Origin: Nitrospirota bacterium
GTDB lineage: Bacteria; Nitrospirota; Nitrospiria; SBBL01; JAADHI01
Direction: 5' to 3'
Assembly: GCA_029261195.1 (NCBI GenBank)
Contig: JAJDBU010000054.1
Span: 1 to 49,724 of the forward strand
DNA length: 49,724 nucleotides
Positions 43,086 to 49,225 of this stretch are shown in pieces. A model generated the notes under the pieces. It saw nothing but the letters and a program-made list of their open reading frames with translations. It did not search any database and had not been told where the DNA came from. The translations under genes and the position numbers were made by a program. Each line of letters starts with the position of its first letter. Position 1 is the stretch's first letter.

Positions 43086-46000
43086 ATGATGGTGACAGGC
43101 AGTGTGCAGAAGAAGCCCGATAGGACATACTCAGGTATTATACCTGGAAGGCTTTTCAAAGGGTTGGAGGCGTTACTCCTATTTTTCTTTGTTTTATTGT
43201 TCCTGCCGTTGAAGGCTCACGCTGGGTTCTGGGAACAGACGGGAGGGCCGGAGGGGGGCAATATACAATCAATTGTCATGGCACCAAACTATGATATTGA
43301 CCAGACGGTTTTTTCATTGGTTGATGGCAATATCTATAAATCGACAGATGGTGGAGAGACATGGTTGCAGGTGTTTGATCATTTTGTACAGAACATCGTT
43401 ATTTCCCCTGACTATTCCAACGATCAGACACTTTTTGCCATATCTGACCCACCGTTTGAGAATACTGCTGTTTACACATCAATTGACGGAGGAATCGCAT
43501 GGTCAAAGATCAGCAACCTTTCTGCTTTTATCAATTTTTCTGAGATAGCGATTTCCCCTTTATTTGCCGTTGACCAGACACTTTTTGCGCAAGGTACCGG
43601 CGGAATGCATAGATCGACTGACGGAGGGGTTACTTGGGTACGAAATGTTTCCACACCTCAACCCATTGGACCTGTTGGAGATTTCAGTTTTTCACCTTCG
43701 TATGCCCAAGATCAGACGATTTTCTCTATCGGGTCAAATAAGGCCTTGATCAAATCCATCGACGGCGGTGTTTCGTGGAGCGTAATTCGCACACTCATGC
43801 TGCCAATCAATGATCCCAAGGTTTTTTCTCTTCGATTGGTTAAACTGTCTCAAAACTATATGGTAGATCAAACCATTTTTTTGAGCGTCAGCGATGGCCG
43901 GTTCAACCCCACCAGGGATGTCGTATATACCTCGACCGACGGAGGAGTTTCCTGGTCCCCAGCAAGTTCCGGTTTAGGTGGTGGTGCTGTACATTACCTC
44001 GCAATATCACCTTCTTACACAAGCGACAGAACTCTCTTTCTTGCCAATTTTTTCGATGTCCCCTATAAATCAACCGATGGCGGTCTGACATGGACACCAA
44101 TCAATACAGGCCTTCCGAATATTCCTACCAAGTTCATCTCTGTTTCACCCGCGTTTCAGACGGACAGAACGGTCTTCGCTGGCACCACCGGTGCTGGAAT
44201 CGTCAAGTCAGTAGACGGCGGAACCAACTGGGTACAAAAAAACTCAGGCATAAAACACGCACTCGTTTTTTCTTCGATAGCGATCTCCCCATTTTATAAG
44301 ACCGACCGGACTATCTTCGCTGGAGCGTATCCCGAAGTGGCTAAATCTACAAATGGAGGGGATGCATGGCCTTCGATAAATACCGGTCTCCCTAGCGGTG
44401 CAGTCACTGAACAACTGCTTGTATCCCCCGCATATCAAACCGATCAAACGGCATTCGCGATCATTCAGGAAGCTGATTTTGGCTTCACAAGTAGTACGCC
44501 GATCACTGCCTACAAGACCGTTGACAGCGGTCAATCTTGGGTTCTATCCAATTCAGGGCTGCCGACGACCCCTTCACCCACTGGAGGTGGGTTCGGGTGT
44601 TTAGCCTTTTCACCCTCTTACAAGAATGACCAAACGGTTTTCTTCTTCGGATGGAATGGAGTCTTCAGGGCTGTGGATAGTGGGGCATCGTGGATCAAGG
44701 TAAATAATATAGGATTTGGAGGAACTTCTTGCCACAGTAAAATTGGGATGTCTCCGTCTTATGCCACCGACCAGACCATCTTTGCCAGTGACCGTGGAGG
44801 TGTGTGGAAGTCGGCTGATGCTGGAATTTCCTTTGCTCCAATCAATAACGGTCTGCCTGCCAGCCTTTCAAACACCTCATTGGTTGTTTCGCCGTCATAT
44901 GGGACTGACCAGATCTTATTTGTATTGAGGGGCCTAAAGCTTTTTAAATCTACCGATGAAGGTTTATCCTGGACGCTTTCGGCAACCTTCCCTTCACTTA
45001 TCCCGACCGATTCCAATATAAATGTAATTGCAATTTCCCCCGCATATTCAAGGGATAGAACCCTTTTTGGAGCAGATCTCAAGCCACACTCAGGTGGACG
45101 GACTAGATATATATGGAAATCTGTTGATGACGGTGTAACATGGGAGCGCATTCTGACGCCTCTTCACAACATCCCGTCGGCTTGGTCTCCGCCCGCTATC
45201 CGTCTTAGCTCTATGGAATTCTCTCCAGGCTACCCCTGCGATGGCACGCTCTTTTTTGGCACTGGAGAAGACGGCGTCTGGAAGTACATTGATACCGAGG
45301 CCATCAGTGCGTGCCGACCGCCGGGCATTACCTCCCTCTCCACAACCTCCGGAGCCTCAGGGGATGCCGTCACGATCACCGGTACCAACTTCGTGGCCAA
45401 CCAGGGAACCAGCACCGTCACCATCGGCGGGGCAGCGGCGACCGTCACCAGTTGGAGCGACACGCAGATCATCGTCAGCGTTCCGGCGGGCGCAACCACC
45501 GGGCCCCTCGTCGTGACGGTAAACGGCGTTCCGGTTACCGCTCCACAGGACTTTACCGTCCTGCAACCTCGATTTACGCTTTCCATCGCGCCGAATGTGC
45601 AGACCGTGGCCAGCGGCGGATCAGCCGCCTTCACGCTTTCCCTGACAAGCATTGATGGGTTTAATCAGCCTGTTGGATTCGACAATCCTTTAGGGCTGCC
45701 ACCCGGAGCAACAGCAAATTACAGCCCCGCGACCGTCGTTCCGCTTGGAGATGCGACCCTGACGATCCAGACCGTCCCCACGACTCCACCCGGCTCCTAT
45801 CCCCTGACAATCAACGCAAACGGCGGGGGCGCGGGTGATGTGAAGGGTGTGACGTTGGAGGTGACGGCTCCAGTTCCATCCCCTACAGACACCGACGGAG
45901 ATGGCGTTCTTAACCATTTAGACAACTGCCCAGAAGATCTAAATCCAGACCAGCAAGATATTGATGAGGATGGGCGTGGTGATATATGCGATTCTGATAT

Positions 46001-48146
46001 TGATGGAGATGGTCTGACAAACACAGAAGAGGCAACAGCAGGGACAGAGTCAAATAAGTGGGATACCGACGGAGATCATTTGTCGGATGGCCTAGAGGTA
46101 AAGGGTGTGCCCCATGAAAATAGTGAGTTCCTGTTGGATCTTAAAGGTATGGGCGCAGATCCGCTTCATAAGGATATTTTTGTGGAGGTGGATTATATGA
46201 TGCTTCCAGCCAACTGTCCTCCTGGTGAAAAATGTTCTACCCCTCACTCGCATAAACCCTACGATGAAGCAATCCAGAAGGTTGTCGACGCATTTGCAAA
46301 GGCTCCACTGTACGATGCTGACGGCAAACTCATTAACAATCCTGATGGTACTCCCGGTATCAGACTGCATGTAGACAATGGAAGAAATGCCTTGCTCAAT
46401 TATCCGGGAGATGTATCGAGAAAGTGGGGTGATTTAAGTCAATCAGGGATCATAGCGGAGAAAGAAATTCTTGGAATACAACAGAACGAGACCGTAAGTT
46501 ATGTGAAGAACCAATGCGTGGATACTACCGGTATAACTTGGTGGGAAAGAATACGTAAAGATTTTAACGAAAAAAAGCAGCTTGATAAGTCTCGTCAAAA
46601 AGTATTTCACTACGTTATCTTTTCGCATGATACAGGTGTTTATGAATTTGATCCAAAAAGTAATAAATGTGTTCTCAAACTATCTGGTGGGTTATCACAT
46701 GTACCTGCAAGTGATTTTATCGTCTCACTTGGCTCCCATGCCAATGACAAGTCTGAAGGGTCCATTGATCAACAAGCTGGTACATTTATGCATGAGTTAG
46801 GGCACAATCTTGGGCTTAAACATGGAGGACAAGATGAGGTCAACTACAAACCTAATTATCTGAGTGTGATGAATTACAGCTTCCAGGTGTCTGGTGTCTA
46901 TACTCCTAAGCGGTTACATGATTATTCCAGGTTTGGACAGAACGAACTTCCAGATCTTATTGAATTCCGCCTTGATGAAAGCATGGGGTTGGCTCCGAAA
47001 ATCGGCAAACTTGATGAGTACAGGACAGTTTACTACGGCCAAAAATGTACAACAGGAATACAACTTCCTGGAGGCGCTACTCCCATACAAGGGTCTGCAT
47101 TGTCTCCAAAAATTAAAGGTTGGATTGATTGGGATTGCGATGGAATTGTTGATCCTCCTTTACCTCTTCCTTTATCTATACCTACAACTGTTTCTTCTAC
47201 CTCCGTTGATATTAATAAAGATAATGGAACGACTATACTCCATTCCTACAACGACTGGGCAGACCTGAAATTCGAAGGGGATCTGAGCAGACCCATTGGC
47301 AGATCAGCAGGATCAGGGCTGCCGGTTTTACAACCAAGTTCCCCGCCTCCGGTAGAACTAACCCCGGAAGAAGATGCCCTGATTCCAAAACTTTTTGCTG
47401 TACTTGTGAGCAATCCAGGAAACCAGATCTTGCCGCAGGGTAAATCGACAACCTTCCTTTTTAAAATCATAAACAAAGGCGTGAAACCGGACAGCTACAC
47501 CCTTACAGCCACGTCGAGCCGAGGCTGGAGCAACATGGGGGGGATGCCGCCATCTGTGAGCCTCCTACCGGGCGAGGAATTTATTTTCGAGGTTCAGACA
47601 ACGGTGCCTTCCAACGCCGCAAACGGGGATACCGATGATCTCACGATTCGGGCAGACAGCACCGGAAGCTCAGGCCTGCTCGACCTCAGTACGGTGACGA
47701 TTACAGCATTTGACGGAAATCCCCCCACGATCACCGCCTCGGTTTCTCCGCCACCGGATGCCAGTGGGGCACACAACACCGACGTAACGGTCACTTTCAT
47801 CTGTGCCGATGCCGAATCAGGCATCGCAAGTTGCACGCCACCCGCCACCGTCACCACCAACGGTACGGGACAAGTGATCACCGGCACAGCAGTCGATCTG
47901 GCCGGAAACACCGCCACCACCTCGGTCACCCTGAACATCGACAAGACCTCACCCACTATGAAGGGTGACCTCAACGCCGACGGCTGCATCGACCGGGGCG
48001 ATTACCGAATTTTGATTACTGACATTCGCAACAGACCACCGAATGACCCCGCCCATGACCTCAACGGGGATGGTCGGGTCAACGTCGCAGATGCGCGGAC
48101 GCTTATCCGCCTGTTCACGAATCCAAGAGGCGCGCCTTGTCCATAG
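43086..48146 (+). CDS. secreted multidomain metzincin protease with propeller repeats and dockerin
   Basis: A 1686-residue exported protein. A signal peptide ends at LKAHA (about residue 46). Fourteen repeats follow to about residue 740, each with SPxYxxDxTxF and most with an Asp-box S.DGG..W, as in sialidase/sortilin-type beta-propellers. Then come an IPT/TIG domain (about 745-825), an Ig-like beta domain and thrombospondin type-3 calcium repeats (about 935-1000; DTDGDG, DIDGDG). The peptidase domain has HELGHNLGLKHG at about 1236-1247 (HExxHxxGxxH zinc site) with the Met-turn SVMNYS at about 1262. NEW3/CARDB-like beta domains and a C-terminal dockerin type I (about 1627-1685; DLNADG and DLNGDG loops) complete it. 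Either ATG, 43086 or 43089, fits CGGAGG. The next gene encodes a cohesin-like PEP-CTERM protein. Confidence 0.88.
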   Translation: MMVTGSVQKKPDRTYSGIIPGRLFKGLEALLLFFFVLLFLPLKAHAGFWEQTGGPEGGNIQSIVMAPNYDIDQTVFSLVDGNIYKSTDGGETWLQVFDHFVQNIVISPDYSNDQTLFAISDPPFENTAVYTSIDGGIAWSKISNLSAFINFSEIAISPLFAVDQTLFAQGTGGMHRSTDGGVTWVRNVSTPQPIGPVGDFSFSPSYAQDQTIFSIGSNKALIKSIDGGVSWSVIRTLMLPINDPKVFSLRLVKLSQNYMVDQTIFLSVSDGRFNPTRDVVYTSTDGGVSWSPASSGLGGGAVHYLAISPSYTSDRTLFLANFFDVPYKSTDGGLTWTPINTGLPNIPTKFISVSPAFQTDRTVFAGTTGAGIVKSVDGGTNWVQKNSGIKHALVFSSIAISPFYKTDRTIFAGAYPEVAKSTNGGDAWPSINTGLPSGAVTEQLLVSPAYQTDQTAFAIIQEADFGFTSSTPITAYKTVDSGQSWVLSNSGLPTTPSPTGGGFGCLAFSPSYKNDQTVFFFGWNGVFRAVDSGASWIKVNNIGFGGTSCHSKIGMSPSYATDQTIFASDRGGVWKSADAGISFAPINNGLPASLSNTSLVVSPSYGTDQILFVLRGLKLFKSTDEGLSWTLSATFPSLIPTDSNINVIAISPAYSRDRTLFGADLKPHSGGRTRYIWKSVDDGVTWERILTPLHNIPSAWSPPAIRLSSMEFSPGYPCDGTLFFGTGEDGVWKYIDTEAISACRPPGITSLSTTSGASGDAVTITGTNFVANQGTSTVTIGGAAATVTSWSDTQIIVSVPAGATTGPLVVTVNGVPVTAPQDFTVLQPRFTLSIAPNVQTVASGGSAAFTLSLTSIDGFNQPVGFDNPLGLPPGATANYSPATVVPLGDATLTIQTVPTTPPGSYPLTINANGGGAGDVKGVTLEVTAPVPSPTDTDGDGVLNHLDNCPEDLNPDQQDIDEDGRGDICDSDIDGDGLTNTEEATAGTESNKWDTDGDHLSDGLEVKGVPHENSEFLLDLKGMGADPLHKDIFVEVDYMMLPANCPPGEKCSTPHSHKPYDEAIQKVVDAFAKAPLYDADGKLINNPDGTPGIRLHVDNGRNALLNYPGDVSRKWGDLSQSGIIAEKEILGIQQNETVSYVKNQCVDTTGITWWERIRKDFNEKKQLDKSRQKVFHYVIFSHDTGVYEFDPKSNKCVLKLSGGLSHVPASDFIVSLGSHANDKSEGSIDQQAGTFMHELGHNLGLKHGGQDEVNYKPNYLSVMNYSFQVSGVYTPKRLHDYSRFGQNELPDLIEFRLDESMGLAPKIGKLDEYRTVYYGQKCTTGIQLPGGATPIQGSALSPKIKGWIDWDCDGIVDPPLPLPLSIPTTVSSTSVDINKDNGTTILHSYNDWADLKFEGDLSRPIGRSAGSGLPVLQPSSPPPVELTPEEDALIPKLFAVLVSNPGNQILPQGKSTTFLFKIINKGVKPDSYTLTATSSRGWSNMGGMPPSVSLLPGEEFIFEVQTTVPSNAANGDTDDLTIRADSTGSSGLLDLSTVTITAFDGNPPTITASVSPPPDASGAHNTDVTVTFICADAESGIASCTPPATVTTNGTGQVITGTAVDLAGNTATTSVTLNIDKTSPTMKGDLNADGCIDRGDYRILITDIRNRPPNDPAHDLNGDGRVNVADARTLIRLFTNPRGAPCP

Positions 48147-48204
48147 GGCGTGACCACCAGCACGCTCAAAAAGTTTGATAACGCATTATTTGGAGGAAGA
48201 AAAC

Positions 48205-48795
48205 ATGAAGAAATTTCTGGTACTTGCAACATTACTTTATTTTTCGACACTCTCGGTCGGTCGTGTCGATGCGATCTCGCTGTCCCTTGACCCGGTCTCC
48301 CAGGCAATTCTCCCAGGCGGAACGGCGGCGGTCGATCTTTCCATTTCCGGCCTTGCCGCAGGCGGCGCGCCCTCTTTAGGGGCCTTTCGTGTGGAGGTGA
48401 CTTTTGATCCGAGTATTCTCACCTTTGACTCTGTCGCGTTCGGCGGATTCTTAGGGTTTCCAACCGACCCCTTCGAGACCGACGTTTTTGTCGATACGAC
48501 GCTGCCGGGCGCTGTACTCCTGGATGAATTTTCCTTCCTCTTCGATTTCGAACTGGACGCCCTGCAACCGGACGCCTTTACCCTCGCCTCGTTGTCATTC
48601 ACAGGTAGCGGCCTGGGAGTAGGCACACTCGGCTACGGCCTAGTCGATCTGAGTGATGGCATCGGCTTCACACTTACGCCGTCGCTTACGACTGCCAGCG
48701 TGAGTGTGGTGCCGGAGCCGGGGACTTTTCTGCTTTTGGCTTCCGGGATTGTGGGATTGATTGGGTTCAGTTGGCGCAGGAAACAGGCCGGATGA
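48205..48795 (+). CDS. PEP-CTERM protein with cohesin-like domain
   Basis: A 196-residue secreted protein. A signal peptide (KKFLVLATLLYFSTLSVGRVDA) is followed by a beta domain (about 27-160) with cohesin-like features: VSQAILPGGTAAVDLSISGL, GAFRVEVTFDPSILTFDSV, and FTLASLSFTGSGLGVGTL. The tail is a standard PEP-CTERM sorting signal: VPEPGTF, a hydrophobic helix, then RRKQ. Exosortase would cleave or anchor it at the surface. The start is set at ATG 48205, which has GGAGG at ideal spacing; a TTG ten codons upstream is less likely. It follows the dockerin-bearing protease by 58 bp, so the two are probably co-transcribed. The cohesin assignment is from pattern only. Confidence 0.8.
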   Translation: MKKFLVLATLLYFSTLSVGRVDAISLSLDPVSQAILPGGTAAVDLSISGLAAGGAPSLGAFRVEVTFDPSILTFDSVAFGGFLGFPTDPFETDVFVDTTLPGAVLLDEFSFLFDFELDALQPDAFTLASLSFTGSGLGVGTLGYGLVDLSDGIGFTLTPSLTTASVSVVPEPGTFLLLASGIVGLIGFSWRRKQAG

Positions 48796-48831: not shown

Positions 48832-49225
48832 CTACATGGCTTGCGGCATGTAGCGCCTCAGATCAGGGATCTTTTGAAAGTGAGCGTCAAGGCTGTAGAC
48901 GAAACATTTATTTTCAAGGGCAATCGCGGCAATAATCAAGTCCGGCATCGGGAGGGTGATCCCCCGACGAAGCAATCTAGATGAGGTGTCGCCCGCCTTC
49001 ATCCAGATTGCCTGGTTGACCTCCAGATAGATAATGCAGAGCGCAGAGCGCATCTTTGAGGGTAAGGCGGTCTTTTTCTGTTCGGCAGCCCTGGAGAATT
49101 TCTGCCAGGACAACTCCGACCAATACAATTTCATTCGTATCAATCAGGTGATCGAGAACCCGTTTTTCGAGAGAATCCGGTCGATTAAAAAACGGAATCC
49201 AGACCGATATATCCGCAATAATCAT
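48832..49225 (-). pseudogene. vapC-like PIN-domain toxin, frameshifted
   Basis: Two overlapping minus-strand frames together make one complete PIN ribonuclease of about 130 residues. The 5' frame (to 48977) gives MIIADISVWIPFF with the first acidic residue and VLAEILQGCR with the Glu. The 3' frame gives PDLIIAAIALENKCFVYSLD with the remaining acidic residues. The break is a tandem duplication AGATAGAT at 49025-49032 (ATCTATCT on the coding strand). Removing one copy restores ...CALHYLEVNQAIW. As read, the catalytic C-terminus is lost. No antitoxin of a known family is seen immediately upstream. A sequencing error cannot be excluded. Confidence 0.82.

Follow-up and report, generated by a model that had tools for sequence, protein, structure and literature searches.

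In the type I system of the cellulosome, known from CipA of Clostridium thermocellum and its relatives, an exported enzyme bears a dockerin with a pair of calcium-binding F-hand loops, while the anchoring protein bears a cohesin. The nearest published parallel in Gram-negative bacteria is Candidatus Stygibacter (Cloacimonadota), for which dockerin-tagged peptidases have been predicted to sit on a large scaffoldin that has cohesins in tandem and a C-terminal domain for attachment to the surface (PMC8542988). For archaeal cohesins and dockerins, the function outside cellulosomes is called unknown in a review (PMC5244752). The PEP-CTERM/EpsH exosortase system was described for proteins that bear the sorting signal themselves, and neither cohesin nor dockerin is mentioned in that work (Haft et al. 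2006, PMC1569441). Here we describe two adjacent genes from a Nitrospirota bacterium, found in a stretch of DNA of 49,724 nucleotides (the window). They encode the same two folds and the same calcium-binding F-hand pair as the cellulosomal type I system, with the dockerin on an exported, predicted enzyme and the cohesin on its putative anchoring protein, which carries a PEP-CTERM sorting signal.

Domains of the two neighboring proteins

The features of the locus, with the evidence for each, are the following.

43086..48146, + strand: exported multidomain protein of 1686 aa (open reading frame and Pfam scan)
43239..45290, + strand: BNR / Sortilin-Vps10-like beta-propeller repeats, about aa 52-735 (Sortilin-Vps10 76.9 bits, BNR 34.7 bits)
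46014..47328, + strand: metzincin protease region, about aa 977-1414 (Reprolysin_3; homology to locus L128)
46791..46823, + strand: zinc-binding motif HELGHNLGLKH, aa 1236-1246 (sequence; His, Glu and Gly invariant in 6 homologues)
46863..46880, + strand: Met-turn SVMNYS, aa 1260-1265 (sequence; Met conserved among homologues)
47961..48113, + strand: type I dockerin domain with two F-hand calcium loops, aa 1626-1676 (Dockerin_1)
48192..48199, + strand: Shine-Dalgarno-like GGAGGAAG before the second gene (sequence)
48205..48795, + strand: small secreted protein of 196 aa with signal peptide, cohesin domain and PEP-CTERM (open reading frame, Pfam and family profile)
48274..48702, + strand: cohesin domain, about aa 24-166 (AF2 and Foldseek; family profile against PDB cohesins)
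48709..48783, + strand: PEP-CTERM exosortase sorting signal with VPEP, hydrophobic helix and RRK (PF07589 30.2 bits, cut-off 20.7; TIGR02595 20.4 bits)

The large protein is built, in order, of a signal sequence, the BNR/sortilin-like repeats, TIG, TSP3, the metzincin region, Ig-like regions and the C-terminal dockerin. A metzincin combines HExxHxxGxxH and the Met-turn with a metzincin fold; in this predicted metzincin the two motifs are both present and conserved, and Reprolysin_3 is matched above its Pfam cut-off (24.4 versus 22.4 bits). The AlphaFold model of this region, made from six sequences, had a pLDDT of 35. In the metzincin relatives from Nitrospirota no dockerin tail was seen, with two of these relatives running past the end of the fetched stretch.

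A type I dockerin was taken to be a domain of about 60 aa with two complete F-hand loops and a score above the curated cut-off, and the tail of the large protein is such a domain (PF00404). Dockerin_1 matches it with 32.3 bits against a cut-off of 22.9, and with 39.2 bits in the genome search, where it was the sole dockerin found. The loops DLNADGCIDRGD (aa 1628-1639) and DLNGDGRVNVAD (aa 1658-1669) are both complete, with Asp/Asn ligands at positions 1, 3, 5, 9, and 12. The best PDB matches of the tail by phmmer are dockerins (2y3n_B, E 3.2e-5), and a dockerin profile built without the window sequence matches it with 40.5 bits (E 1e-11). In most dockerins of the family (alignment A9), cysteines are conserved at both ends of the domain, N-terminal and C-terminal, in the pattern CD.D...ARxCxxxCTRPxCA, which suggests a disulfide clasp. 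The window dockerin instead has cysteines at position 7 of loop 1 and near the C-terminus.

The gene of the small protein begins with an ATG at 48205, 58 bp 3' of the large gene, and a scan of this intergenic gap gave no terminator-like or promoter-like site. Taken alone, the small protein scores 14.5 bits against Cohesin (PF00963), which is below the cut-off of 24.1, and a PDB search with its sequence alone gave no match. This single-sequence cut-off is a library convention and not a criterion drawn from biology. When 52 proteins from the dockerin loci of other organisms were made into a profile that left out the window protein, the small protein matched it with 148 bits (E 1.6e-44) and was the one open reading frame of the window to be picked. 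The family to which this profile belongs is one of cohesins with a sorting signal: among 43 aligned members, 36 match PF00963 at E<0.1 (best 2.1e-8) and 40 match PEP-CTERM, and against the PDB the family profile finds the cellulosomal cohesins 5lxv (E 1.2e-5), 3l8q, 4ums, 5nrk, and 1g1k.

The fold was predicted with AlphaFold from a single chain of dockerin, linker and cohesin, obtained by continuing the reading past the stop and past a single word of four bases; this fusion is a folding device, and no claim is made that the cell produces it. The model has a mean pLDDT of 86, with the cohesin part mostly above 90, and shows the jelly-roll beta sandwich of a cohesin. When it was compared with the PDB using Foldseek, all 50 of the 50 best matches were cohesins, with E-values down to 1.5e-12, a probability of 1.00 and a TM (target) of up to 0.83. 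The fused chain has a pTM of 0.61, which is no gauge of the interface. The assignment of the small protein as a cohesin, weak from its own sequence, is thus certain through the family profiles and the predicted fold.

The tail of the small protein has the PEP motif, the hydrophobic helix and the basic cluster of a PEP-CTERM protein, and two exosortases (247-249 bits) are encoded elsewhere in the genome. An earlier, sequence-only reading had described an exported protein of 1686 residues ending in two dockerin loops, followed 58 bp on by a gene for a cohesin-like protein with a PEP-CTERM tail. The dockerin, the spacing and the sorting tail are confirmed by the data above, including the proposed Dockerin_1 search, while the proposed cohesin search fails for the single sequence and succeeds by way of the family profile and the predicted fold.

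Beyond the small gene, two overlapping short open reading frames lie in different frames on the minus strand (48832-49225). By eye they resemble a single PIN/VapC-type toxin gene that a frameshift has cut in two; neither piece has a Pfam match at E 0.01.

Conservation of the gene pair and its cargo

Relatives of the dockerin were sought in 84,980 species genomes with an alignment of dockerin tails (A4), a second alignment (A3) being too diverse. The scan gave 78 loci in Beta- and Gammaproteobacteria, Nitrospirota, Acidobacteria, Desulfuromonadales, and others; Paucibacter and Rubrivivax are among the carriers that can be cultured. These loci contain 49 cohesin-like PEP-CTERM genes, 46 of which are about 0.5 kb or less from the dockerin-coding segment. 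Scans of the whole genomes of 41 of these organisms gave 63 places with cohesin/PEP-CTERM and 81 with dockerin. A dockerin is found within 1 kb of 44 of the 63 cohesin places, always on the same strand (0.09 expected). Some ascertainment enters this figure, since dockerin neighbors supplied the cohesin profile and the genomes were picked for their dockerins. The partner is absent within 1 kb for about 30% of cohesin places and 46% of dockerins. When Nitrospirota genomes were drawn evenly, 14 of 31 cohesin places were within 1 kb of a dockerin (0.04 expected), and eight of these 14 are outside the seed genomes.

Closer to the window organism, the family-level search covered eight genomes only. 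One relative alone in the same taxonomic family, a Nitrospiria MAG (G006, locus L100), has a strong homologue, and the pair is adjacent there: the gene for a 35% homologue of the small protein directly follows that of an unrelated Ig-like protein, which has a dockerin-like tail at its end. In the genome of the same genus (G007) the pair was not found. The pairwise distances of cohesins and dockerins are correlated (r 0.61, 45 pairs), which fits co-inheritance, although shared ancestry alone may produce such a correlation.

The tagged proteins are diverse, with PKD, Big, cadherin, He_PIG, TSP3, kelch, and FG-GAP-type domains, and they also include multicopper oxidases, one tyrosinase, and metzincins. 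The closest parallel to the window locus is L128 (Ectothiorhodospiraceae, gammaproteobacterial), where a protein of 1219 aa combines a homologous metzincin region (28% identity over 329 aa, E 5e-21) with a C-terminal dockerin (39%), and a cohesin-PEP-CTERM gene adjoins in divergent orientation. At L077, the gene for a multicopper oxidase with a dockerin tag comes first, a cohesin-PEP-CTERM gene second and an exosortase gene (136.5 bits) third. Loci L092, L077, L089, and L093 lie on one contig (C8 of G246/G407, about 98-111 kb), in a cluster of about 13 kb. It contains an exosortase gene, two genes for cohesin-PEP-CTERM proteins and several genes whose products bear a dockerin (a tyrosinase, a multicopper oxidase, and a BNR protein).

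At least 13 loci have a second PEP-CTERM family (tail FEQRFSQ..VPEP) directly downstream of genes with a C-terminal dockerin (L104, L115, L117, L119, L137, L143-L145, L151, L155, L158, and L164). This family matches the cohesin profile weakly, and the two members checked in Pfam gave PEP-CTERM only; its proteins may serve dockerins as alternative partners.

Proposed docking of the protease and alternative readings

We consider it likely that this locus encodes a cohesin-dockerin display pair that holds the predicted metzincin at the surface. Both proteins would be exported by their signal peptides, and the single-cohesin protein would be processed by an exosortase through its PEP-CTERM signal, which would bring it to the outer surface or to the exopolysaccharide matrix. 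The large metzincin protein itself lacks a sorting signal. Its C-terminal dockerin, loaded with calcium, would plug into the cohesin, and the docked protease, together with its beta-propeller and Ig-like arms, would be retained at the cell surface or in the matrix. The domains, the cohesin fold, the sorting signal, the exosortases and the linkage are observed; physical binding, its dependence on calcium, the location at the surface and the activity of the protease are what we infer.

The sequence-only reading had likewise proposed that a protease docks on a cohesin sorted by an exosortase, and that relatives would keep the gene pair. The second expectation agrees with the adjacent pair in the Nitrospiria MAG, with the linkage across the 41 genomes and with L128 in another phylum. 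The first is upheld as far as sequence can carry it, and is too narrow given that the cargo is interchangeable across a broad family. The window pair is one case of this family, in which the dockerin-cohesin cassette is common and the cargo differs.

Both the surface and the matrix are possible locations because PEP-CTERM sorting is tied to exopolysaccharide, and cleavage of the anchor has been proposed for the PEP-CTERM/EpsH system (PMC1569441). The cleaved cohesin could be shed together with the exopolysaccharide, in which case the pair would decorate the released matrix and not the cell. We find this possible, though unlikely; it is compatible with docking and alters the location only, and the two locations cannot be told apart from sequence.

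The true partner of the dockerin is ambiguous, because another contig of the genome (C62, locus L001 1318-2010, + strand) carries the gene for a second cohesin-PEP-CTERM protein. This protein is the sole one in the genome above the Cohesin cut-off (35.6 bits), it fits the family profile, and a dockerin gene was not found near its gene. The dockerin could pair with this protein, or with both, and the neighbor would then be a paralogue or a co-expressed protein and not an exclusive partner. That arrangement is improbable, given that the family profile ranks the window neighbor higher (148 versus 82 bits) and that in relatives the partner gene of the dockerin is next door on the same strand.

The geometry of the pairs bears on a further reading, in which there is no docking: the domain with the cohesin fold would serve at the surface as an Ig-like or carbohydrate-binding module, the dockerin-like tail would be a calcium-folded cap, and the linkage would reflect co-regulation of matrix proteins. 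Cohesin folds do occur outside cellulosomes. Of 39 family tails, only 20 match Dockerin_1 at E<0.01, and many fit generic EF-hand models. Nonetheless, in a strict count of pairs within 1 kb, the cohesin gene flanks whichever end of the cargo gene codes for the dockerin: downstream for 31 of 31 C-terminal dockerins and upstream for 15 of 15 N-terminal ones (p 2e-12). Two Nitrospirota loci with pairs 2.7-2.8 kb apart (G180 and G314) are not a neat fit to this rule. A cassette of tag and adaptor predicts the side rule, while plain co-regulation predicts neither this rule nor the retention of the same pair with quite different cargoes, and we regard the reading without docking as very doubtful. 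A cellulosome proper was dropped, given that the genome has one dockerin and single-cohesin proteins only, with no tandem cohesins.

For the display pair as a general arrangement, we lean, with less assurance than for the window locus, toward single, exosortase-sorted cohesins acting as adaptors that open the PEP-CTERM pathway to proteins lacking its signal. The dockerin would serve as a sorting tag that is portable and non-covalent; this tag and its adaptor would be kept adjacent and move together between cargo genes across many Gram-negative phyla.

Comparison with known systems

The recurrence of the pair across Gram-negative bacteria with many cargoes suggests a widespread and apparently undescribed way of holding exported proteins at the surface. 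Among the open-access papers searched, none joins 'dockerin' and 'PEP-CTERM', or 'cohesin domain' and 'PEP-CTERM'; the novelty is provisional because most subscription papers were outside this search. If the proposal is true, it gives a function to Gram-negative, non-cellulosomal cohesins and dockerins and ties their interaction to exosortase sorting. The pairs are compact and numerous, and therefore the idea is directly testable; display on Gram-negative cells could also draw on them for orthogonal cohesin-dockerin parts.

Unlike the type I cellulosome, the system has one cohesin per protein in place of a tandem scaffoldin; it uses an exosortase signal for sorting, is found in Gram-negative hosts, has a metzincin/propeller cargo and keeps the partner genes adjacent. 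Candidatus Stygibacter resembles the present locus in that its dockerin-tagged peptidases are predicted to be held by cohesins on a Gram-negative surface by way of a C-terminal sorting domain, and differs by the large tandem-cohesin scaffoldin (PMC8542988). The non-cellulosomal cohesin of Archaeoglobus fulgidus (PDB 2xdh) is a structural match to the window model and likewise stands outside a cellulosome; it is archaeal, and its pairing with an exosortase is not reported in the literature searched. With the PEP-CTERM/EpsH system (PMC1569441) the locus shares the sorting signal and the presence of exosortases. Taken together, the system would be a monovalent, exosortase-sorted version of the known cohesin-dockerin display.
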